Of a DNA stretch of 64,000 bases, positions 29,686 through 42,726 are shown piece after piece. The translations under genes were made by a program, and so were the position numbers. The notes beneath the pieces were generated by a model. That model worked only from the letters and a program-made list of their open reading frames with translations, did no database searches and was not told where the DNA came from. Position 1 is the stretch's first letter, and each line of letters begins with the position of its first letter. The stretch is from a bacterium (GTDB taxonomy: Bacteria > Electryoneota > Electryoneia > Electryoneales > Electryoneaceae), in NCBI GenBank assembly GCA_020444265.1, contig JAHLLH010000012.1, positions 1 through 64,000 of the forward strand, given 5' to 3'.

Positions 29686-30792
29686 ATGTTTTGGGAACTG
29701 TTGTTGTCGGGTTGGCAGGCGCTTACTGAATACCTTTCAGCCCATGTCCTCACCTGTTTAATTCCGGCATTTTTCATCGCAGGTGCAATTGCTGTTTTTG
29801 TCAGCCAGACAGCGGTGATCCGTTACTTCGGTCCGAAGGCGAAGCGTTGGTTGGCGTATACGGTGGCTTCGCTGTCCGGGGCGATCCTCGCCGTCTGTTC
29901 CTGCACCATTCTTCCCCTGTTCGCGGGTATTCGGCAACGAGGTGCCGGGCTTGGTCCGGCGATAGCCTTTCTCTATTCAGGACCAGCGATCAACGTGCTC
30001 GCGATCATCTATTCCGCACAATTGTTGGGGTTGGACCTGGGAGTTGCACGAGCGACCGGCGCGATCGTCTTCTCCGTCGTGATCGGCTTGATCATGGCGC
30101 TTCTTTTCCGGAAAGAGGAAGAGAAGCTTGTTGAGAAAAACATGGAATGGGCGTACAGCTCGGATGATGATAGCTCGCACCCGCTGAAGCAGATCATCCC
30201 CTATTTCGCCGGGATGGTAATTTTCCTCATTGCGGCTTCATCCATCGGGCTAGTGGTGGAATTGACAAAGACAGATCCGGGTCGCTGGGCGATGGTCTTC
30301 GAGGGGAAACCTGTTCCCGCATTGATTTCGCTGGTCTTTCTGGTAGCCGTCATCGTCATGGCCGTCCGCTGGTATACGGGAGATGAGGTCGCTGAGTGGA
30401 TGCGGGAAACCTGGTCCCTCTTCAAGAAAATTGTGCCGATCCTGCTTGTTGGAGTCTTCATCGCAGGCATAGTCAAGGTTCTGCTGCCTGAACCCGTTGT
30501 GCAGAAATGGGTTGGGGGCAACAGCATTTGGAACAATCTGTTGGCGAGTGTCTTCGGGTCCTTGATGTATTTTTCGACACTCACCGAAGTCCCCATCGTG
30601 CGTGCATTGATGGACCTTGGCATGGGGAAAGGGCCCGCCTTGACCTTGCTGCTGGCCGGTCCATCCCTGAGTCTACCGAACATGATTGTGATTGGCAGGG
30701 TGATGGGTGTGAAACGGACCGCGGTCTATGTTGTCCTCGTGATCGTGCTATCGACGATGGTCGGCATGATCTTTGGGCGATTTGCAGGTTGA
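29686..30792 (+). CDS. ArsP_1-family (DUF318) permease
   Basis: A 368-residue membrane protein with about eight to ten helices. It shows the PF03773 features: AVCSCTILPLFAGIRQRG, then AFLYSGPAINVLAIIY, and a second half-repeat with STLTEVPIVRALMDLG and LLLAGPSLSLPNMIV. Characterised ArsP proteins export trivalent organoarsenicals; other members are untested. The CSC motif and the upstream CVC-type ArsR make a metalloid substrate likely. The small thioredoxin gene follows. Confidence 0.9.
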   Translation: MFWELLLSGWQALTEYLSAHVLTCLIPAFFIAGAIAVFVSQTAVIRYFGPKAKRWLAYTVASLSGAILAVCSCTILPLFAGIRQRGAGLGPAIAFLYSGPAINVLAIIYSAQLLGLDLGVARATGAIVFSVVIGLIMALLFRKEEEKLVEKNMEWAYSSDDDSSHPLKQIIPYFAGMVIFLIAASSIGLVVELTKTDPGRWAMVFEGKPVPALISLVFLVAVIVMAVRWYTGDEVAEWMRETWSLFKKIVPILLVGVFIAGIVKVLLPEPVVQKWVGGNSIWNNLLASVFGSLMYFSTLTEVPIVRALMDLGMGKGPALTLLLAGPSLSLPNMIVIGRVMGVKRTAVYVVLVIVLSTMVGMIFGRFAG

Positions 30793-30853
30793 CCCAGCGA
30801 TCAAGAAAAGCGAGTGTTTGATACTGATAGGTCTACGCAAAAGGAGTAGGATC

Positions 30854-31099
30854 GTGAAGAAGATCGAAGTCCTGGGGATCGGATGCCCCAACTGCAAAAA
30901 GACAGAAGCGATTATCCGTCAGGTAGTCGAGAAAAAGGGCTGGACTGAAGGGCAGGAATACGTCATCGAAAAAGTGACCAATCCCTCGGACATCGCAGCC
31001 CGTGGCATCCTCGCCACCCCCGGTGTCGTGGTAGACGGCGTCGTCAAGCACAGCGGCAAAATCCCATCTCAGAGCATGATCGAGGGGTGGATCGGCTGA
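30854..31099 (+). CDS. Small redox-active disulfide protein (thioredoxin_3)
   Basis: An 81-residue mini-thioredoxin. GTG 30854 follows AGGAGTAGG; the longer frame starts inside the permease. Redox motif CPNC at residues 11-14 after KKIEVLGIG, and cis-Pro in ATPGVVVDG. Such proteins commonly sit beside DUF318 permeases. It probably works in the cytoplasm with the permease or on its substrate. Confidence 0.92.
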   Translation: MKKIEVLGIGCPNCKKTEAIIRQVVEKKGWTEGQEYVIEKVTNPSDIAARGILATPGVVVDGVVKHSGKIPSQSMIEGWIG

Positions 31100-31217: not shown

Positions 31218-33494
31218 CTACTTGAGTACGACAAATTTCCTTGATTCAGCCCCTGAGTCGGTCGATGCTTGCAGAATATAGACACCACTTGCCAAGGATT
31301 CGGCGGAGATGGATATGTGGTGGGAACCAGCGGCTAGTTGTGTAGGATGTGAAGTATAGACCTGTTGTCCCAGCAGGTTAAAGATCCTGTACTCAAAGTT
31401 CGTCGGTGTTGGAAGTGTAACGGTGACCGTTGTCGTGGCATTAAAGGGATTGGGTGCGATTTGCTGAATGCTGAACGTGCTTGGCCGTTCAGGTTCTTCT
31501 GCGACAGAGTTCACGTCAATTGAAAAGAAGTGAAGAGTTGAAGGTGTCGCGGCCAAGATCACATTGTTGTCATAGCTCAAACCAGCCAAGTGCTCAAAAT
31601 CATCAAATTCATAACTATCCTCGATTTGAAGTCCAACTATTGGCGTGTAGCGGAGAGTGATCAGAGCTGAATCTGTCTTGGCGACGATCATATCCGTATC
31701 GGGAATATCAACCGGATAGATTTGATTACAATCAATACTAAGATAACCCAAGTTGACAGGATTTCTTATATCACGAATGTCGATAATTCTAATCGAAGGG
31801 GATTCTAAATATAAGCTCAAGTAGAGTTTATCATCCTTTATAATGAAGTCATTAATATCATCATCATCATATAATGTTTCATGAATTAAGGTTACATTTT
31901 GTGGGTCTTCTACACTATAGAATTGAAGGTGCCCCCCTAACTGATCATGTCTCCAGGCTACGTAGGCTGAATCCCCAAGAACTGCAGTATTATAAGAATG
32001 TAAAGAAGGATCCTCTGTTTCTGACAGCAATACTGGGTTGTATAAATTTGATATATCATAGATGTAGAGAATCTGACCAAAACTAAGATAGAATCGTGTA
32101 TTGGTTATATTTAAACTTGATACGGGATGATTAAGGGGGATTACCGACGCTAACGTTGGATCTATTGGGTTTGTGCAGTCATAAATTCGAATGTCATAGT
32201 CAGAACCCACCGTAACTAGTGCGTTGTCAGAGCTGAATATGTAATTGACACGTTCTTCGTAGTCTTCAAGCTGATTGACCTCTACTGGTTGGGAGGGATC
32301 TGAGAAGTCAACGATGTGAATCGCGCTATCACCTCCAAGGAAGGTGATATAGGCGGTACTACCAATAGAGGTTATCGCGCTGATGTTAGGATTAACTGTA
32401 CGGGTGTAGATCTCCTGGATTCTGTCAAGGTCTGAGATGTCGTAAACCTGAAGTAGCGTATCATTAAAGACGGTTGGACTTTTTACGTACAGTCGTGTAT
32501 CCGTGCTGACAATTGTTTCAATTTCCCGGTTGATTGTGAGGCTATCCAATAGATCGACCTCGTTACTCTCATCAAGAGAAAAAAACTGAATTCCTATTGA
32601 CCAATCAGGATAACCAACAATGAACTGAGCATACAAAAAGTCATCGCCAGCAGCTTGATAAAGATAAGGGCGATAATCGCTAGTGAATGGATTTGTAAAA
32701 GAGGTTAAAGGCGTGAAATTATTTGGGTTTGTATTATCATATATCATAATCTCATCATCATCAGAAAACATAGCATATGTACCAATAAAACCGATATTAC
32801 GGTCGCCATCACCAAATAAAATCCCTTCGTATTCAGGAGTACCTGGGTGGTGAACGACGTTGTAATAATAAGCATATGCTTCATCGAGCTCAAAATCCAC
32901 CTTTACTATATATAAATAGCCACGATTTACTGTGAACTGATATAAATAACTACTATTTGATTGGACGTCTATGGAGTTACTATAAAAAATGCTATCTGGG
33001 TCTGAAAAATTCCAGATATCAATTGTATCTTGATAATTGTCAGTATAAGCAAAGTCATTGAAAAAAGTCATTTCAAGGCCGGTCGAAGGAATGGTGGGAT
33101 CATCGTCGTATTGAAATGTGTCACGAAAGCGTGGGGCCAGGGGGTTATCAAGTTCATACAAGGCTAACCTACCAGAAGGAAGTCTGGCCGTCATATAATT
33201 CTGCTGAACAGCTATAGGTATAAAAAAAAGCGTGTCATTACTCGTATCTTCTATAAAAGTATTCCCATCTTCATAAAATATCGCTAAACCACTACCAGGA
33301 AAGTCGATATAGGCATGACCGTTATAGACAACCATCCCGCGATTTGCGCCCCCGCCATTATAGATCGAACCCAGGTGATTGATTTCCTGCAAGGAGTGAT
33401 CAGCCTGAAAACCTTTGTTCGTTTGGGCAACTGAAAGCAGACACTGCGTCAGGATGAATAACAGGAAGAGCGCGACATTTTTCAGATGTTTCAT
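31218..33494 (-). CDS. Secreted LVIVD-type propeller protein with T9SS C-terminal tail
   Basis: A 758-residue exported protein. The signal peptide is clear (MKHLKNVALFLLFILTQCLLSVAQ) and ATG 33494 follows AGAGG. The body repeats blocks such as IWNFSDPDS, IYDNTNPNN, VYDISDLDR, IVDFSDPSQ, IYDCTNPID and IYDISNLYN, one per propeller blade. The last ~85 residues form a type A T9SS sorting-like domain (APNPFNATTTVTVTLP, YRIFNLLGQQVY, ASGVYILQ). Base composition is distinctly more AT-rich than all neighbours, with many ATA/AAT/TAT codons, which suggests recent transfer. Confidence 0.9.
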   Translation of the reverse strand: MKHLKNVALFLLFILTQCLLSVAQTNKGFQADHSLQEINHLGSIYNGGGANRGMVVYNGHAYIDFPGSGLAIFYEDGNTFIEDTSNDTLFFIPIAVQQNYMTARLPSGRLALYELDNPLAPRFRDTFQYDDDPTIPSTGLEMTFFNDFAYTDNYQDTIDIWNFSDPDSIFYSNSIDVQSNSSYLYQFTVNRGYLYIVKVDFELDEAYAYYYNVVHHPGTPEYEGILFGDGDRNIGFIGTYAMFSDDDEIMIYDNTNPNNFTPLTSFTNPFTSDYRPYLYQAAGDDFLYAQFIVGYPDWSIGIQFFSLDESNEVDLLDSLTINREIETIVSTDTRLYVKSPTVFNDTLLQVYDISDLDRIQEIYTRTVNPNISAITSIGSTAYITFLGGDSAIHIVDFSDPSQPVEVNQLEDYEERVNYIFSSDNALVTVGSDYDIRIYDCTNPIDPTLASVIPLNHPVSSLNITNTRFYLSFGQILYIYDISNLYNPVLLSETEDPSLHSYNTAVLGDSAYVAWRHDQLGGHLQFYSVEDPQNVTLIHETLYDDDDINDFIIKDDKLYLSLYLESPSIRIIDIRDIRNPVNLGYLSIDCNQIYPVDIPDTDMIVAKTDSALITLRYTPIVGLQIEDSYEFDDFEHLAGLSYDNNVILAATPSTLHFFSIDVNSVAEEPERPSTFSIQQIAPNPFNATTTVTVTLPTPTNFEYRIFNLLGQQVYTSHPTQLAAGSHHISISAESLASGVYILQASTDSGAESRKFVVLK

Positions 33495-33612
33495 TTCAAA
33501 CCTCTTGGTTGGTTGATCATAATGTACAATCTTGAAGCTATCCGCCCAAGTATACGGGTGGGTATGCTACGAACTCCAACCTCAAATAGGTCGTGTGACC
33601 GAGAGAGAGTGG

Positions 33613-34302
33613 ATGATCTGTTTCGCACATCGTGGGGCTCGGGGGCATGAGCCTGAGAACACCTTGCGGGCCTTTACCAAGGCTCTCGATTTGGGCGCGC
33701 CCTGGATCGAGGTAGATGTCTACCCAGTTGGCGGTGAGCTGGTGGTGATCCATGATCTGCGTCTGGAACGAACCACCAACGGCACCGGCTATGTCTTTGA
33801 GCAGGAGTTCTCGTACCTGCGGAACCTCGATGCGGGGATGGGGGAGAAAATCCCGACTTTGCGTGAGGTGCTCAACCTTATCGACGGGCAGGCGGGTGTA
33901 AACATCGAGTTGAAGTGGCCGGGCACTGCCGAACCGGTCGCGAAGTTGATCGATACCTGCTGCCGTGAACTTGGCTGGCCTGTAGACCACTTCCTCGTCT
34001 CGTCCTTCATCCACGCGGAACTGCGTCACTTCCACCAACTGCTTCCCGCCATTCGTATCGGCGCCCTTACGGGCGATCTACCACTGAACCTGGCAGCCTT
34101 CGCCGAGGAGTTAGATGCCGATGCCGTCCACGCCAACATTGAATTTGTCAACCAGGATTTCGTTGACGATACTCACCGTCGCGGTATGCAGTTTTACGTC
34201 TACACAGTCAACTATCCCGAGGATATCGCCTGGATGGACCGTCTCGGAGTCGATGGTGTCTTCACCGACTATCCGGAGCGTGTCCTGAGCTACAAGCTGT
34301 AA
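33613..34302 (+). CDS. Glycerophosphodiester phosphodiesterase
   Basis: A 229-residue cytoplasmic GDPD without signal peptide. It hydrolyses glycerophosphodiesters to glycerol 3-phosphate and an alcohol. The catalytic set is present: HRGARGHEPENT at residues 5-16, IEVDVYPVGGELVVIHD, then NIELKWPG. ATG 33613 follows GAGAGAG; the frame is open upstream to a TTG but with a non-family leader. It is followed after 36 bases by the hydrolase::GlpD fusion, which would use its product. Confidence 0.94.
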   Translation: MICFAHRGARGHEPENTLRAFTKALDLGAPWIEVDVYPVGGELVVIHDLRLERTTNGTGYVFEQEFSYLRNLDAGMGEKIPTLREVLNLIDGQAGVNIELKWPGTAEPVAKLIDTCCRELGWPVDHFLVSSFIHAELRHFHQLLPAIRIGALTGDLPLNLAAFAEELDADAVHANIEFVNQDFVDDTHRRGMQFYVYTVNYPEDIAWMDRLGVDGVFTDYPERVLSYKL

Positions 34303-34338: not shown

Positions 34339-36975
34339 ATGCGTCACGTGATCATCGGTATCCACGGTCTTGGCAACAAACCATCTGAACAGCTTTTGCA
34401 AAGCTGGTGGCTGGAGTCGATCAAGGAAGGGTTTGCCCGATCCGGTTTTGAACCACCCGACTTCGATTTTGAACTGGTCTATTGGGCAGATTTACTCCAC
34501 GATCAGCCGAAGGATCCCGATGTAGAGGATCCTGAGGATCCCCTTTATCTCGAAGCTCCTTACAGACCTGCCCCCGACCTGACGGATCGCCATCCGCGCA
34601 AATTCCGTCGCCATGTGCTTGAAGCGATCGAACGAGTGCTCGACCGGCTGATGATGAATGAGGATTTTACACTCAACTACGAGCATATCGCCGATTCCTT
34701 GATCCATCACTATTTCAAGGATCTGGAAGCCTACTATGCCAGCCCCGCAGAAGGGGTGATGGACGATAAACCCTCCGTTAAGATGCTGATCCGTGAACGG
34801 CTGGCGTCACGTCTCCGTGTTCATCGTGACGATCATGTCATGCTGATCGCCCACTCGATGGGCTCGATTGTCGCCTACGATGTCCTCAACCTGAATCCCG
34901 AGCTTAAAGTTGACACGTTTGTTACCATCGGATCGCCCCTGGGGCTGCCAGTGGTGATGGGGAGGATTGCGGCAGAACATCAGAGCGAATCAACCAGCCC
35001 GAAAACCTTGCGTACCCCGCCGACCATCACCAGCGCCTGGCACAATTTCGCCGACCTTGAAGACAAGGTCGCATTCAATTTCACCCTGGCAGATGACTAC
35101 GTCCAGAACATCACCGGTGTGAAACCGGTGGATCATGAGGTGGTCAATGATTATCAGGTGGGTGATGAACGAAACCCGCACAAGGTCTATGGCTATCTGC
35201 GTGCGCCAGAAGTAACCATGTTGTTGCATGGTTTCCTCGCCATGCCACTTCCTAATGGATGGAAGTTGATGCTGCAACGGGTTGGTGAATGGTGGGATCG
35301 GCTCTTCGGTCCCAGGCTTTCGCTACCTGAGCCACCAACTGTTCCACAGGAATCTATCTCGCAGGAAGCTGATTCTGAGTATCTGTTCTCCTCGTTGCCA
35401 GACTCTTTCAGTCGTGAACGGATGATTGTCCAGCTGCGGGCGAACAAAGAGCCGTGGGACATTGTGGTGATTGGTGGTGGCGCAACCGGGATGGGAGTTG
35501 CTGTCGAGGCAGCATCACGTGGCTACAAAACCCTTCTGCTGGAGCAGCATGATTTCGGCAAGGGGACGTCCAGCCGCAGCACCAAGCTGGTGCATGGTGG
35601 CGTACGCTACCTCCAACAGGGGAATGTGTCGTTGGTTCTGGAAGCGTTGCGGGAACGTGCAATCATGCGTGACAATGCTCCCCACCTGGTGTCGGACCTG
35701 CCGTTCATTGTCCCGATCTACGATTGGTGGGAAGGACCCTTCTATGGGATCGGGTTACGTCTCTACGATATGCTGGCGGGGAAACATGGTTTTGGTGATT
35801 CCCGGAATCTGAGCCGGGAGGAAACGATCGAACGTATCCCGGTGATCGAAACAGAGGGGCTGCGTGGTGGAGTGGTCTACCATGATGGTCAATTTGACGA
35901 TTCCCGTCTCGTGATCAACCTCGCCCAGACTGCTGCCGAAGAGGGAGCTGTGCTGCTGAATTACGCGAAGGTGACAGGGCTTAAGCATGTGGATGGGACC
36001 GTGCAAGGGGTGGTCGTCCACGATGAGGAAGCGGGCGAAGAGTTTCATCTCGAGGCACGTGCGGTGATCAATGCGACAGGTGTTTTCACCGATTCGATCC
36101 GCACGCTGGACGATGATCAGGCAGCGCCGGTGATCCAACCGAGCCGAGGCATCCACATTGTCCTCGATCGTTCCTTCCTTGGTGGTGATACCGCGATTAT
36201 GGTCCCGCACACCGATGATGGCCGTGTCCTCTTCGCCATTCCCTGGCACGACAAAGTGATTTTCGGAACAACGGATACTCCTGTTGATGCCCCGGTTTTG
36301 GAACCCCAGGCAAGCCGTGAGGAGTTTGATTTCTTGCTGGAGCATGCTGCACGCTACTTGATCAACGACCCGACGGAAAAAGATGTATTGAGCGTATTCG
36401 CAGGATTGCGCCCCCTGGTAAAGGAAGGGGAGGAGGGTTCGACGGCTGCTATTTCACGTGACCATTCGATCCTCATATCGAGGTCCGGCCTGGTGACGAT
36501 TGCGGGCGGAAAGTGGACGACGTATCGTCACATGGCCGAGGAGACCATTGATCAAGCTGTTGCGGTCGGCCAGCTTCAACAGGTGCCATCGTTGAGCCGT
36601 GATCTTCCCATCCACGGCTGGCATCAACGAGCCGATGACTACCATTCACTTTCGATGTATGGGTCCGATGCTCCTGCACTGCTGCGTATGATCGAGAAGC
36701 ATCCCGGGCAGGGTACGCTGCTCCATTCAGCACTACCAATCACGGAAGCACAGGTGATCTGGGCTGCTCGTGCGGAAATGGCCCGGACGGTAGAGGATGT
36801 GCTGGCGAGACGGACCCGCTGTCTGCTGTTGGGAGCACGTGCCAGCATTGACATTGCACCCAGGGTGGCCTCGATCCTGGCACGAGAACTCGGGTTTGGA
36901 CGGAAATGGCAAGCGGAGCAAGTGGACGCCTACAAAGCGATAGCGCAGGGCTACCTGCCTGAAGGTCTGAAGTAA
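34339..36975 (+). CDS. Fused alpha/beta-hydrolase and FAD glycerol-3-phosphate dehydrogenase
   Basis: An 878-residue two-domain protein in one uninterrupted frame, with a strong GGGGGAGGGG site. Residues 1-330: an alpha/beta-hydrolase of lipase type, with oxyanion region VIIGIHGLGNK, nucleophile S173 in AHSMGS, and late Asp/His candidates (LEDKV; NPHKVYGYL). Residues about 335-370 are a polar linker. Residues 371-878: a full-length GlpD-type dehydrogenase with the FAD motif IVVIGGGATGMG at 375, GTSSRSTKLVHGGVRYLQ, FAGLRPLV and a complete C-terminal helical domain. GlpD oxidises glycerol 3-phosphate to dihydroxyacetone phosphate and reduces quinone. The upstream GDPD makes that substrate. Fusion of these families is unusual to my knowledge; the substrate of the hydrolase part is unknown. 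Confidence 0.93.
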   Translation: MRHVIIGIHGLGNKPSEQLLQSWWLESIKEGFARSGFEPPDFDFELVYWADLLHDQPKDPDVEDPEDPLYLEAPYRPAPDLTDRHPRKFRRHVLEAIERVLDRLMMNEDFTLNYEHIADSLIHHYFKDLEAYYASPAEGVMDDKPSVKMLIRERLASRLRVHRDDHVMLIAHSMGSIVAYDVLNLNPELKVDTFVTIGSPLGLPVVMGRIAAEHQSESTSPKTLRTPPTITSAWHNFADLEDKVAFNFTLADDYVQNITGVKPVDHEVVNDYQVGDERNPHKVYGYLRAPEVTMLLHGFLAMPLPNGWKLMLQRVGEWWDRLFGPRLSLPEPPTVPQESISQEADSEYLFSSLPDSFSRERMIVQLRANKEPWDIVVIGGGATGMGVAVEAASRGYKTLLLEQHDFGKGTSSRSTKLVHGGVRYLQQGNVSLVLEALRERAIMRDNAPHLVSDLPFIVPIYDWWEGPFYGIGLRLYDMLAGKHGFGDSRNLSREETIERIPVIETEGLRGGVVYHDGQFDDSRLVINLAQTAAEEGAVLLNYAKVTGLKHVDGTVQGVVVHDEEAGEEFHLEARAVINATGVFTDSIRTLDDDQAAPVIQPSRGIHIVLDRSFLGGDTAIMVPHTDDGRVLFAIPWHDKVIFGTTDTPVDAPVLEPQASREEFDFLLEHAARYLINDPTEKDVLSVFAGLRPLVKEGEEGSTAAISRDHSILISRSGLVTIAGGKWTTYRHMAEETIDQAVAVGQLQQVPSLSRDLPIHGWHQRADDYHSLSMYGSDAPALLRMIEKHPGQGTLLHSALPITEAQVIWAARAEMARTVEDVLARRTRCLLLGARASIDIAPRVASILARELGFGRKWQAEQVDAYKAIAQGYLPEGLK

Positions 36976-36989
36976 CTGAGGGAGGGCAT

Positions 36990-37352
36990 ATGCCCGGCTA
37001 TTTACTGCAGCGTGATCCGTTTATTGTCCCAACCACCGATGGAAAGTCTATCGCGGAACACTTCGGGCTGGCAAGCCATGAAGTGGGAGAGTTCAGCCTT
37101 GCCCTGATGCATGCCCCTGCCGGATGGTCTGAACCGCACCAGACACCTGAGTTTGATGAAATTACGTTGTTAGTGACCGGGAAGAAACGGGTCGAAGTGG
37201 ATGGCGATACCATCGACCTCGAACCAGGGCAGAGTGTGCTGGTGAAGAAGGGAAGCCGAGTCCGCTACTCGAACCCCTTCGAAGTGGAAGCGGTCTACGT
37301 CTCCCTTTGCCTGCCCGCCTTCACCCCGGACAAGGTTCATCGGGAGGAGTGA
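36990..37352 (+). CDS. Cupin-domain protein
   Basis: A 120-residue single cupin barrel. Motif 1 is reduced (EPHQTPEFDEITLLVTG) and motif 2 is PGQSVLVKKGSRVRYSN, which lacks the usual second histidine; metal binding is therefore doubtful. It starts at ATG 36990 after GGAGGG, 14 bases behind the fusion gene, so it belongs to the same operon. It may be a sensor or small enzyme in the same pathway. Confidence 0.88.
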   Translation: MPGYLLQRDPFIVPTTDGKSIAEHFGLASHEVGEFSLALMHAPAGWSEPHQTPEFDEITLLVTGKKRVEVDGDTIDLEPGQSVLVKKGSRVRYSNPFEVEAVYVSLCLPAFTPDKVHREE

Positions 37353-37409: not shown

Positions 37410-39833
37410 CTATACTTCCGATCTCAAGGCTGTCGCCGGGTTGGTCCTCGCGGCACGGATCGACTGGAAGGAAACTGTTATCAGGGCTATCAACAGCGCG
37501 CCTAAGCCTGCCAGCAGGAAAGGCTCTACGGTCAGGCTGGTCTTGTAGGTGAATTCATCCAGCCACCTCTTCAGACCAAACCAGCCCAACGGCCACGCAA
37601 TCACATTCGCAATCGCCACCCACTTGAGAAAATCCCACGCCAGCATCGTTACCAACCGTCCCTCACTCGATCCGAGCACCTTGCGTACCGCAATCTCTTT
37701 ACGACGCTGTTCGGTTGCATAAGAGGCCAGTCCAAACAGGCCGAGGCAGGCGATCAGGATCGCCAGACCGGCGAAAATCGCCACATTCCTTGCGAATTGA
37801 CGGTCCCCTCTGAACTGGAAGTCGAAGACGTCATCGAAGAAGTTGCTGTTAAACTGATTGCCCGGGTACAATTCTTCAAACTTGCTTTCGATCCGCTCCA
37901 TCGTTTCAGGGATCGTGCCGGCCTGGATGCGAACCAGCAGCATGTTGAAGTTTTGTGGACCGTAGGTAAACATCAGCGGTTCGATCGATTGACGAGTGGT
38001 CATGAAATGGAAATCATCCACAACTCCGACAATCTCACGGTCCTCAAGGCTGCCATCTGCGTTGACAAGGCTGATGGAGCGTCCCAACGGCTCATCCCAA
38101 CCAATCGCTTTGGCTCCGGTACGGTTGATGATGATGCCCTGCTCGAGGTCTGTCCCAAACTCTTTCGAGAAGTTCCGTCCCTGTTCAACCATGATCTGCA
38201 GCGTCGGGATAAAGCCATCGTCCGCGTACATGCGGTTGAAAATCAGGCCTTTCTCGACATTCTGCTTGCCTTCCGGGCGAATCTCAAATCGTGCCATACC
38301 CCAACCGGGTAGATGGGAGGTACCGCCAACTTTTTCGACACCGGGCAGCTTTTTCAGCTCTTCGGCCAGCAGACCATAGGTATCGAATCCACGTTGCCCC
38401 GCTACCTGCCAAAGGGGAACAGTCAGGACCTGGTCACGGTTGTAGCCCATGTTCCGATTGCGCAGATAATCGAGTTGCTGGATGATCACCAGCACCGCGA
38501 CCACCAATGCAATCGAGATAGCAAACTGGGAAACAACGAGGAACTGTCGAAGCGATACACCCTTTTTCCCAGCGCGGAATTCGCCTTTGAGCACGGACGC
38601 TGGTTGGAAATTGGTCAGAACGAGAGCCGGGTAAACTCCGGACAAAAGGCCGACCAGGATCGCGGCTACAAACATCAGCACGCTGAGAATGGGAGTATTG
38701 AGGAGCGTATAGACAGGAGAACGATCAAAAATCTGGGGCAGAACGGGCATGAGAAGCTGCACGCCCACCAGTGCTATCACCATCGACAACATCGTCATCA
38801 GGATCGATTCACCGAGGAATTGCCGTGCCAGCTGGCCACGTTCCGCGCCCACAACCTTACGCAATCCAACCTCTTTGGCACGTTTCGCTGCTCGCGCGCT
38901 TGAAAGGTTGATAAAGTTGATCGATGCGATCAGCAGTACCATGGCGGCGATGACACCCAGCATCGTCGCACGCGTCTTGTCTCCGGGGTTGATATTGATC
39001 CAGTCGTACGATAGCTCGTTAGAACCGAGATGGATATCACCCAGAGGCTGGAGATAGGGGATATAGAGGCCATCCCCGAATTCATTCGCTTCCGCCAATC
39101 CCTGGATTTTCCGCTCTGCGGTAGCCTTGTCGACCCCTTCCTGGAGCAGTACATAGCCCATTCCAGCAACGTTCGACCAGTGGTCCCACCAGTCTTCACG
39201 GCCCGGCATGATTTCAAGTGCGACCAGCAGATCGGCACGCATGTGTGAGTTGACTGGCATATCCTCGAAGACACCGTTGACCGTGTAGACAAGGTTTCTA
39301 CCAAATTGAACCTGCTGGCCGAGAGCATTGCCATCGCCAAAAAATCGTTCCGCGGCGCGACGTGAGATAATGCAGGTGTTAGGGATGTGGAGCATCTGGT
39401 TGTAATCGCCCTGGAGGACGGGGAAATCGAAGACATCAAAGAAGGTGGAATCCGCAACAATACCACGTGCCTGCAATCCGGGATCATCCGGGTCGGCGGT
39501 GCCATTGGGTGCCGCACGCAGTACATTATTGCCGAAGCTGAACATGCGAACGGAAGATTTGACCTCCGGGATCTCGTCCTTGACCGTTTTAACGAGACGT
39601 CCAGATGTCACTGCGTACATCCCATTGGTATCCTGGGTTGTATCGCTGGTGATCAGACGGTAAATCCGGTCGCCCTTGTGATGGAGGGAGTCGAAAGAGA
39701 GATCGTCAATCACATAGAGGCTGATGATAACCGATACCGCTAGTCCGAGCGCGAAACCGATGATATTGATCGCGGAATAGATACGGTTACGTGCAAGTTG
39801 GCGCAGTGCGATTTTCAGGTAGTTCAGAAACAT
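37410..39833 (-). CDS. ABC transporter permease, double MacB_PCD/FtsX type (copy 1)
   Basis: An 807-residue membrane protein. ATG 39833 follows GGGAG and gives the family start MFLNYLKIALRQLARNRIY, with a first membrane helix. It has two halves, each with a periplasmic MacB-type domain and a three-helix FtsX domain; coupling motifs are AKEVGLRKVVGA (middle) and RRKEIAVRKVLGS (near the end). Such proteins work with a MacB-like ATPase in lipoprotein, peptide or lipid traffic, or as mechanotransmission devices. No ATPase gene is adjacent. It is closely related to the next gene. Confidence 0.92.
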   Translation of the reverse strand: MFLNYLKIALRQLARNRIYSAINIIGFALGLAVSVIISLYVIDDLSFDSLHHKGDRIYRLITSDTTQDTNGMYAVTSGRLVKTVKDEIPEVKSSVRMFSFGNNVLRAAPNGTADPDDPGLQARGIVADSTFFDVFDFPVLQGDYNQMLHIPNTCIISRRAAERFFGDGNALGQQVQFGRNLVYTVNGVFEDMPVNSHMRADLLVALEIMPGREDWWDHWSNVAGMGYVLLQEGVDKATAERKIQGLAEANEFGDGLYIPYLQPLGDIHLGSNELSYDWININPGDKTRATMLGVIAAMVLLIASINFINLSSARAAKRAKEVGLRKVVGAERGQLARQFLGESILMTMLSMVIALVGVQLLMPVLPQIFDRSPVYTLLNTPILSVLMFVAAILVGLLSGVYPALVLTNFQPASVLKGEFRAGKKGVSLRQFLVVSQFAISIALVVAVLVIIQQLDYLRNRNMGYNRDQVLTVPLWQVAGQRGFDTYGLLAEELKKLPGVEKVGGTSHLPGWGMARFEIRPEGKQNVEKGLIFNRMYADDGFIPTLQIMVEQGRNFSKEFGTDLEQGIIINRTGAKAIGWDEPLGRSISLVNADGSLEDREIVGVVDDFHFMTTRQSIEPLMFTYGPQNFNMLLVRIQAGTIPETMERIESKFEELYPGNQFNSNFFDDVFDFQFRGDRQFARNVAIFAGLAILIACLGLFGLASYATEQRRKEIAVRKVLGSSEGRLVTMLAWDFLKWVAIANVIAWPLGWFGLKRWLDEFTYKTSLTVEPFLLAGLGALLIALITVSFQSIRAARTNPATALRSEV

Positions 39834-39997
39834 GAAGATCTCCCACCGTGTGTATCGCATGGGCCGGCTCATCTGTCGGACATCGACAGGCGGGATAAGT
39901 TACTACTCCCTAACTTGCAAAAACATGCGATGCAGTGAAGGGAAAAGTAGTCATTGGAGTCAGCCGTGTGGGCACTCGGGGGTGTTCTCCCGGACTT

Positions 39998-42385
39998 TTA
40001 CAATTCCTGTCGGAGCGCCTCCGCAGGATTGGTTCGCGCGGCACGCATCGACTGTGCGCTGACAGTCAGCAGCGCAATCAGCAGAGCAGCAAGGGTTGCA
40101 CCCAGAAATGGAACGACATTCAGGTCGACACGGTAGATGAAATCGTTGAGCCATTCGCGCATTGCGAACCAGGCAATCGGCCAGGCGATCACATTGGCTA
40201 AAAGCACCCACTTAAGGAAGTCGGATGCCAGCATCATCACAATTTGACCTTCGCCACTGCCGAGGACTTTACGGACAGCGATTTCTTTGCGACGCTGTTC
40301 GGTTGTATACGATGCCAGTCCAAAGAGACCGAGACAGGCGATGAGAACCGCCAGGATGGAGAAGGTACTCACCACTTGGGCAAACGTCTTGTCGCTACGA
40401 TACTGCTCGTTGAACTCATCATCCATAAAGCTGAATTCGAAGGGTCGCGACGGAAACACTTCATTCCACGCCTGTTCAATTTTCCGCATGGTGGGTTGAA
40501 GCGATCCGGCTTGGATGCGCACGCTCATCAGCCCGCCCGGAGTAGGATCGTAATAGAACATCAAGGGTTCGATCTGGTGACGGACGGTCGCAAAGTGATA
40601 ATCTTCGACCACTCCTACCACGTTCAGGAAGTTCTCCGTGTCGGGTCCGCCGACATTGACCCTTTTGCCCAATGGTTCTTCCCAACCGAGGGAACGTGCC
40701 ATTGCCTGGTTGATGATCACCGCGAGGGAATCATCGGTGCCGAATTCCGGTGAGAAGTTGCGTCCCTCGACAATCTCGATCCCCAGGTTGGGCAGGAAAT
40801 GCTCATCGATTGTATTCACACTGACAATCCAGGGACGGTCCTCGTCCAACCCCTCTGGACGGACACCATTTCGCCCGTGCAGACGGCCTGGCACATTGGA
40901 GCTATTGCCAATACCGGCAACTTCCGGCATTTCACGTAGTTTGTCACGCAGTATCGAGAAAGGTTCCTCCACACCAGGGAAGAAGAGGCTGAGCAGGAGG
41001 ACCTGGTCACGGTCATAGCCGGGGTCCATGGTCGTGATGTAGCGAAGCTGATTGGAGACTACCAACGTTCCCACAATCAGGGCAATCGAGATGGCAAACT
41101 GGCCAATGACCAGAATGCGCCGCGTCAGGATACCCTGCTTGCTTCCCTTGAATTCACCTTTTAACACTACGGCGGGGTTAAAGCCTGAGAGTACGAGGGC
41201 TGGATAGAGGCCAGATAGCGTACCAACAACCAGCACAGTCGCCAGCAGGCCCAGGATCATCTGCGGCGACCCGGCGAGGTTCAGCACCATACTTTTGTCG
41301 GTCAGGTTGTTGACATAGGGCAGCATCGCTTCGACCAGCACGACCGCGAACACAGTGGCGATGAAGGTCAGCAGGACCGATTCGCTGAGGAATTGCCAGG
41401 TCATCTGGTGACGGCCCGCGCCCACAACCTTCCGGAGGCCAACCTCTTTCGCGCGACGAGATGCGCGTGCTGTCGAGAGGTTCATGAAGTTGACCGATGC
41501 GATAATCAGTACAAAAATGGCGATGATTCCCAACGCCCGAACCTGGCTGGCATCACTCTTGGAACTGTTCAAATCGTAGAGCATGTGGCTGGCATGCAGA
41601 TGCAGGTCAAGGATCGGCTGGATTTGAGGTGTAAAGTATTCCGGAACACCGTTGTCCCGCGCCAGTCGAATCGCCTTTGCCTGTACCGTATCAGTATTCG
41701 CCCCTTCTGCCAATTTGATATAGCTGACCATCGACAGGCTGCCCCAGGAATCCCAGTATTGCTCGTTTTGTTCATTACGGACCATCGCGAAGAGGGCATC
41801 GAACTGGAGGTGGGAGGTGGAGGGCGGCGCTTCGATGATGCCGGTTACCTTCGATTCATAGGGCGATCCCTCAACCGCCAGTGCCTGACCAATGGGGTCC
41901 TCGTCGCCAAAAATGCGGTTCGCCAGTTCAGGTGTGAGCAGCACATTGCCCGGGGAGTCGAGGACAGTTTTCTCGTCGCCACGCAGCAGCTTGAAGCCAA
42001 AGATCTCGAGAAAGCTCTGCTGCACACCGAACATCGATTCAGTTCGGACCTGATGCAGGTTCTCACCGACCAGCACTTCGCCAAAATTGGAGAGCTTGAC
42101 CGAGTTTTCCACCTCGGGGACATTGTTTTTCAGTGCTTCTGCCATTGCAGGCATGGTGATGCCGACATACGAGCTGCTGACCCCGCGTGCGCTGTCGATC
42201 GTGTACACCCGGTAGATACGATCCGCATCGGGATTGAACCGGTCAAAGCTGAGATCATCCTGGATATAAAGGAAAATCAGCAGGCAGACGGCGAGTCCGA
42301 TGGCGAACCCTGCGATGTTGATCAGGGAATAGAGGCGATTTCGTGTGAGGTTCCGCAGGGCGACAACGAGATAATTCTTGAACAT
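39998..42385 (-). CDS. ABC transporter permease, double MacB_PCD/FtsX type (copy 2)
   Basis: A 795-residue paralogue of the preceding protein with the same layout and the same motifs (AKEVGLRKVVGA, RRKEIAVRKVLGS, ARTNPAEALRQEL at the end). ATG 42385 follows GGAG; a longer frame to 42484 is rejected as lacking family character. The two genes are in tandem with 164 bases between them. The pair could form a heterodimeric channel. No signal peptide besides the first helix is needed. Confidence 0.92.
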   Translation of the reverse strand: MFKNYLVVALRNLTRNRLYSLINIAGFAIGLAVCLLIFLYIQDDLSFDRFNPDADRIYRVYTIDSARGVSSSYVGITMPAMAEALKNNVPEVENSVKLSNFGEVLVGENLHQVRTESMFGVQQSFLEIFGFKLLRGDEKTVLDSPGNVLLTPELANRIFGDEDPIGQALAVEGSPYESKVTGIIEAPPSTSHLQFDALFAMVRNEQNEQYWDSWGSLSMVSYIKLAEGANTDTVQAKAIRLARDNGVPEYFTPQIQPILDLHLHASHMLYDLNSSKSDASQVRALGIIAIFVLIIASVNFMNLSTARASRRAKEVGLRKVVGAGRHQMTWQFLSESVLLTFIATVFAVVLVEAMLPYVNNLTDKSMVLNLAGSPQMILGLLATVLVVGTLSGLYPALVLSGFNPAVVLKGEFKGSKQGILTRRILVIGQFAISIALIVGTLVVSNQLRYITTMDPGYDRDQVLLLSLFFPGVEEPFSILRDKLREMPEVAGIGNSSNVPGRLHGRNGVRPEGLDEDRPWIVSVNTIDEHFLPNLGIEIVEGRNFSPEFGTDDSLAVIINQAMARSLGWEEPLGKRVNVGGPDTENFLNVVGVVEDYHFATVRHQIEPLMFYYDPTPGGLMSVRIQAGSLQPTMRKIEQAWNEVFPSRPFEFSFMDDEFNEQYRSDKTFAQVVSTFSILAVLIACLGLFGLASYTTEQRRKEIAVRKVLGSGEGQIVMMLASDFLKWVLLANVIAWPIAWFAMREWLNDFIYRVDLNVVPFLGATLAALLIALLTVSAQSMRAARTNPAEALRQEL

Positions 42386-42726
42386 GGGGAAGCTCCATCT
42401 GCGATCTGTCCGGCTGACAGGGTCGAATCCAATCCAACCATGATTTGCAAGCCATGTGCCAGCGGGATGGAACAGAGAAGCCATTGGAAAAGCAGTGGGT
42501 TGGAACGATCACGGTCCAGACGCATGTGTACGATTATGAACAGTGAACGTTCCCCTGCGTGCACTCTGGTCTTTCTGGACGGCACGATAACCCATTGTCC
42601 AAGCCCAGATGTCAGCTTTTCCACCTGCCCCTTGTTCGTTGTGTCGACTCGTTGGAAATGGTATCTTAGTTCAGTAAACTGGCATTCCAGCACCTGTACC
42701 GATCAACGAAGGAAGCCTTCCAGACC
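42386..42726. other. Divergent intergenic region
   Basis: 341 bases without a gene between the permease and response-regulator starts. A candidate promoter toward the regulator is TTGTGT (42639-42644), 17-base spacer, TATCTT (42662-42667). No other clear structure was seen. Confidence 0.5.

Follow-up and report, generated by a model that had tools for sequence, protein, structure and literature searches.

A conserved, apparently undescribed fusion of an alpha/beta-hydrolase with glycerol-3-phosphate dehydrogenase and its linkage to GDPD genes in bacteria

Results

The fused gene and its surroundings

The stretch of DNA analyzed here (the window) spans positions 1 to 64,000 of contig JAHLLH010000012.1 (assembly GCA_020444265.1), from a bacterium of the Electryoneaceae. 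On its forward strand, a single uninterrupted frame of 878 codons (34339 to 36975) starts with ATG, contains no internal stop, and is preceded by a strong Shine-Dalgarno-like run, aagagggggaggggaacgcATG. The encoded protein is composed of an alpha/beta-hydrolase domain (residues ~1 to 303), a disordered linker (319 to 351), and a complete FAD-dependent GlpD domain (~357 to 878), and the gene is the only one of its kind in the 4.3-Mb genome (Table 1). A sequence-only reading of the window had proposed such a frame, joining a hydrolase to a complete GlpD through a linker of ~35 residues. The uninterrupted frame and the detection of both DAO and DAO_C by Pfam bear this out, and structure modeling of the hydrolase domain and of the full-length protein, suggested there as a check, gave two domains with a disordered, low-confidence stretch at 319 to 351 between them, in agreement with the proposed linker length. 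An internal start at M362, which would give a separate GlpD product, was rejected, there being no clear Shine-Dalgarno sequence ahead of it.

Table 1. Features of the fused gene and the adjoining GDPD gene (positions in the window)
Feature	Residues	Position	Strand	Basis or remark
GDPD, UgpQ-like		33613..34302 (ORF opens TTG 33532)	+	PF03009, E 2.9e-37
Fused alpha/beta-hydrolase-GlpD protein		34339..36975	+	878 aa; single copy in genome
Alpha/beta-hydrolase domain	1-303	34339..35247	+	AlphaFold model, VIA Z, weak Pfam matches
Ser173, presumed nucleophile (AHSMGS)	173	34855..34857	+	Invariant in 22 homologues
Asp242, presumed catalytic acid (ADLEDKVA region)	242	35062..35064	+	Invariant in 22 homologues
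His281, presumed catalytic histidine (RNPHK)	281	35179..35181	+	Invariant in 22 homologues
Amphipathic helix (NGWKLMLQRVGEWWDRL)	306-322	35254..35304	+	Moment calculation, net charge of tails
Disordered linker	319-351	35293..35391	+	pLDDT under 50 in full-length model
GlpD domain	357-878	35407..36972	+	Alignment, Foldseek
DAO_C (PF16901), GlpD/GlpO C-terminal domain	766-854	36634..36900	+	E 9.6e-21, above gathering score

Just upstream lies the GDPD gene, as the earlier reading had also noted (ORF 33532 to 34302). PF03009 covers residues 33 to 249 of the long ORF and positions 1 to 243 of the 244 in the profile, a full-length domain. Since homologues align from residue 28, the true start is probably the ATG at 33613, ahead of which a Shine-Dalgarno-like gagagag is found; no signal peptide was apparent in the protein. 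The match to NCBIfam PRK09454 (E 8.5e-36) reached 123.6 bits against an equivalog cut-off of 264, and the protein is therefore called UgpQ-like only.

Further upstream, an ArsP_1-type permease gene is followed by one for a thioredoxin_3 protein (29686 to 31099, forward strand), likely as a pair, and a 758-residue repeat protein whose C-terminal sorting tail is of the Por secretion (type IX) kind is encoded on the reverse strand (31218 to 33494), divergently from the GDPD gene. A small cupin gene (36990 to 37352, forward strand) begins 14 bases past the fusion stop and was not found beside the relatives of the fusion. It is followed on the reverse strand by genes for two tandem related proteins (37410 to 39872 and 39998 to 42484) that by eye resemble FtsX/MacB-type ABC permeases.

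The GlpD half

The GlpD domain starts at a position that in the alignment matches the start (M-x-R) of separate GlpD proteins. Foldseek matched it to the GlpD structures of Bacillus halodurans (3da1, E 4e-37) and Escherichia coli (2qcu, E 2e-32), and DAO (PF01266) was detected above its gathering score at residues 374 to 730 (E 1e-61). The FAD dinucleotide motif is G379-G-G-A-T-G384, and the domain starts at about residue 374, close to the 375 given for the Rossmann motif in the sequence-only reading. Residues H419, R423, Y424, R691, R707, and K725 align with H50, R54, Y55, R317, R332, and K354 of E. coli GlpD, which we take from its structure to be substrate-site residues. The GlpD half lacks the oxidase-type insert: when it is aligned with streptococcal GlpO (2rgo), the match is broken in the region of that insert, in agreement with quinone as the probable electron acceptor. 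Because the scores fell below the NCBIfam cut-offs (PRK12266, 296.6 of 360 bits; PRK13369, 281.1 of 352; NF033461, type 1 GlpO, 313.9 of 840), the GlpD half is called a divergent GlpD subfamily rather than one of those equivalogs. GlpK and GpsA are encoded at other places in the genome, and no second GlpD-type gene was found there at E 1e-3; as the only GlpD-type dehydrogenase found, the fused one would serve glycerol breakdown too.

The hydrolase half

The AlphaFold model of the hydrolase domain had a pLDDT of 81 and a pTM of 0.84. Its nucleophile elbow is A171-H-S173-M-G-S176, with the serine where the sequence-only reading had put it, and is followed by a conserved Asp and His, as in serine alpha/beta-hydrolases. 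Ser173, Asp242, and His281 were invariant in all 22 aligned hydrolases, among them a distant one at 29%, and their surroundings were conserved. Profile matches were weak: PF07819 (PGAP1) scored 24.4 bits with the domain alone against a gathering score of 24.3, and 23.1 bits (E 7e-5) with the whole protein, and weak PGAP1/LCAT matches recurred in 20 to 21 of the 22 homologues. No curated name for this bacterial family was found in the libraries searched.

Among solved structures, the top match of the model was lysosomal phospholipase A2 (VIA Z 12.7 over 186 residues at 3.5 A), followed by the DDHD domains of Nir1 and Nir2 (Z 12.2 to 12.5; Nir1, 12.5), with LCAT (Z 11.0) and Tle3 (Z 10.7) lower. 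Many other esterases and thioesterases, acyl-protein thioesterases among them, lay at Z 11 to 12, near the top scores (12.7, 12.5, 12.3). The model thus suggests a phospholipase A/LCAT/DDHD-like serine hydrolase; with the top scores nearly tied, a phospholipase is suggested by the fold, not proven.

An amphipathic, mostly basic tail ends the hydrolase in nearly all members and forms the C-terminal tail of the separate hydrolases. In the window protein a helix at 308 to 322 is present in the model at low confidence. The tail may be in contact with the membrane. No signal peptide was apparent in the hydrolase.

Occurrence in other genomes

A species-genome search gave 80 loci, to which relatives of the window's genome were added, and frames were read locus by locus. 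The same architecture, which the earlier reading had proposed to look for, was found in five further assemblies, making six with an in-frame fusion. Besides the window, they are Candidatus Electryonea clarkiae (L002), a member of another genus of the window's family (G003), two Krumholzibacteriia metagenome-assembled genomes (MAGs; L008 and L051, the latter cut by a contig end), and a Desulfobacterales MAG (L003). The linkers lie in a similar place and differ in sequence. An assembly chimera or a frameshift in the linker, the artifacts that the sequence-only reading had named, was rejected on the strength of these five in-frame fusions.

At 15 other loci the hydrolase and GlpD are separate adjacent genes that overlap or have no more than 59 bases between them; at a further two loci (L022 and L027) the contig ends cut the pair. 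The separate pair occurs in about ten other phyla, its carriers including Bacteroidota (Plebeiobacterium), Ignavibacteriota (Melioribacter), Calditrichota (Caldithrix), Latescibacterota, Fidelibacterota/Neomarinimicrobiota, a Desulfobacterales MAG, and a member of the window's phylum (G031). Of the 39 genomes of that phylum, only 3 carry the fusion and a single one has the two genes as separate neighbors, and four genomes of the window's family have no GlpD of this kind at all. Next to the G031 GDPD-hydrolase-GlpD operon, genes for a MATCAP-like protein (tyrosine carboxypeptidase) and a glutathione-synthetase-like ATP-grasp protein were observed (L142, 3500 to 5999).

The hydrolase is a separate gene in most carrier genomes, and most close GlpD relatives have no adjoining hydrolase. 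Among the loci fetched with GlpD, the hydrolase profile matched only beside GlpD; a broader scan of 386 genomes yielded five strong hits (E below 1e-136), of which four lie with GlpD. The fifth (G182; L141, 5100 to 6836) immediately follows a gene for a CDP-alcohol phosphatidyltransferase, again a phospholipid setting, in a genome where no GlpD of this family was found.

Linkage to GDPD

A GDPD gene lies directly upstream at 16 of the 21 hydrolase/GlpD loci, compared with 2 of 54 loci of close GlpD relatives without hydrolase that had enough flank (Fisher test, p 3e-10, with no correction for kinship). The same position is occupied by two deeply separate GDPD groups, about 26% alike, and that a GDPD of either type stands there is the best indication that the genes share a pathway. 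The grouping of GDPD with the hydrolase and GlpD in one module, proposed from the window alone, therefore gains from a gene order kept in many phyla. Both Krumholzibacteriia fusion loci are without an adjoining GDPD. At two other loci (L058 and L066), GDPD genes of different types directly precede GlpD without the hydrolase.

Origin of the fusion

In the hydrolase tree, a single branch (97/93) set all the fused forms apart, and they likewise grouped together in the GDPD tree (92/93). In the GlpD tree, five fused forms were grouped (99; 100/99 without the partial L051), and the Desulfobacterales form L003, from an 8.6-kb MAG contig, was placed among separate-gene GlpDs; the AU test left a single clade unrejected (p 0.27). 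A single fusion origin is likely. The fusion, which in the trees lies within or next to the separate pairs, is most simply explained as the derived state of an older pair of neighboring genes, a direction that we infer, the trees being unrooted. As the unfused genes overlap or nearly touch, fusion through stop loss would be easy.

Discussion

Our preferred reading, held at a probability of about 0.6, is a cytoplasmic, membrane-associated module for glycerophospholipid recycling (acyl-ester hydrolase, GDPD, and GlpD) whose first and last enzymes have been joined. The N-terminal serine hydrolase would strip acyl chains from a (lyso)glycerophospholipid, its presumed substrate, at the inner membrane face; the GDPD encoded upstream would cut the resulting glycerophosphodiester to glycerol 3-phosphate and an alcohol; and the GlpD domain would convert glycerol 3-phosphate to DHAP, passing electrons presumably to quinone. 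The sequence-only reading had suggested the same succession of deacylation, phosphodiester cleavage, and glycerol 3-phosphate oxidation, and it is supported in part. The GDPD and GlpD reactions are established biochemistry, and E. coli GlpD is a monotopic (peripheral) membrane enzyme. Linked to such a GlpD, the hydrolase would act at the same membrane surface, where the flexible linker would tether the two, and in this tethering the benefit of the fusion may lie. Since the same enzymes are adjacent in about ten phyla, usually behind a GDPD, they look like a small undescribed unit for membrane-lipid recycling.

A weakness of the recycling module is that the joined enzymes catalyze steps one and three, which are not consecutive. 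It vanishes if the hydrolase acts on lysophosphatidate (1-acyl-glycerol-3-phosphate), in which case the fusion would yield DHAP without GDPD, and GDPD would merely be a second source of glycerol 3-phosphate. Such direct coupling, which we consider rather unlikely, would explain why the hydrolase is fused to GlpD and not to GDPD and why the Krumholzibacteriia keep the fusion without an adjoining GDPD; it also suits the structural match to Nir1/Nir2, since DDHD-type proteins include phosphatidate-preferring phospholipases. The adjoining GDPD at 16 of 21 loci speaks against it. Also rather unlikely, as a tentative proposal, is a single membrane-associated polypeptide that takes carbon from lysophosphatidate or lysophospholipid to DHAP and reduced quinone, derived from an undescribed GDPD-hydrolase-GlpD operon of about ten phyla. 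If true, it would be a direct lipid-to-respiration enzyme.

An unrelated esterase or thioesterase might instead share only an operon and its regulation with GlpD, without functional coupling. The near contact of the unfused genes, which makes fusion through stop loss easy, and the acyl-protein thioesterases among the structural neighbors fit such a chance join. We hold it improbable: that the pairing has been kept over about ten phyla at deep divergence (40 to 50% identity) and that one and the same position is filled by either GDPD type favor a shared pathway. Far less credible still is a hydrolase without catalytic activity that binds lipid and thereby recruits GlpD to the membrane; recruitment of GlpD to lipid was the other role considered in the sequence-only reading. 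Although the amphipathic, mostly basic tail after the hydrolase core would suit it, this role is weakened by the invariant Ser-Asp-His in 22 homologues and by the separate hydrolase genes of most genomes, in one case without a GlpD of this family; moreover, GlpD is already a peripheral membrane enzyme. An assembly or frameshift artifact is negligible, with no point found in its support and the same in-frame fusion in six assemblies from separate organisms.

The fusion is real, conserved, and apparently an undescribed combination of domains from known enzyme families. A limited search of open-licence papers returned no description of a hydrolase-GlpD fusion and nothing on bifunctional phosphatase-type glycerol-3-phosphate dehydrogenases, and a paper on the Electryoneota (PMC10439189) makes no mention of glycerol, lipid, or lipase. 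Its main interest is that a hydrolase family without a name gains a role open to testing, and owing to the gene linkage the substrate of the hydrolase can be tested directly. To our knowledge, many bacteria have no assigned enzyme for complete cytoplasmic phospholipid deacylation, and the present findings point to a candidate acyl hydrolase for that step ahead of GDPD and GlpD. The fused protein is also a ready-made tool, since both activities would be expected from a single purified protein.

Compared with known systems, the window protein has in common with the GlpD of E. coli (2qcu) and B. halodurans (3da1) the catalytic and C-terminal domains, the FAD motif, the substrate-site residues, and the fold; unlike them, it carries an N-terminal alpha/beta-hydrolase and scores under the NCBIfam equivalog cut-offs. 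The window GDPD has PF03009, the HR..PENT motif, and a PRK09454 match in common with cytoplasmic GDPD of the UgpQ type, but is encoded with a hydrolase and GlpD rather than with an uptake system, and it too stays under the equivalog cut-off. The hydrolase half resembles lysosomal phospholipase A2/LCAT, the DDHD/Nir domains, and the PGAP1-like clan in its fold, its Ser-Asp-His order, its best structural matches, and its weak profile matches, whereas identity is ~15% and the family is bacterial, with no signal peptide apparent. Other multidomain glycerol-3-phosphate dehydrogenases are the algal phosphatase fusions and mitochondrial GPD2 with its EF-hands. These resemble the fusion in joining a second domain to the dehydrogenase, but the partner differs from the hydrolase, and the algal proteins use an NAD-type dehydrogenase.
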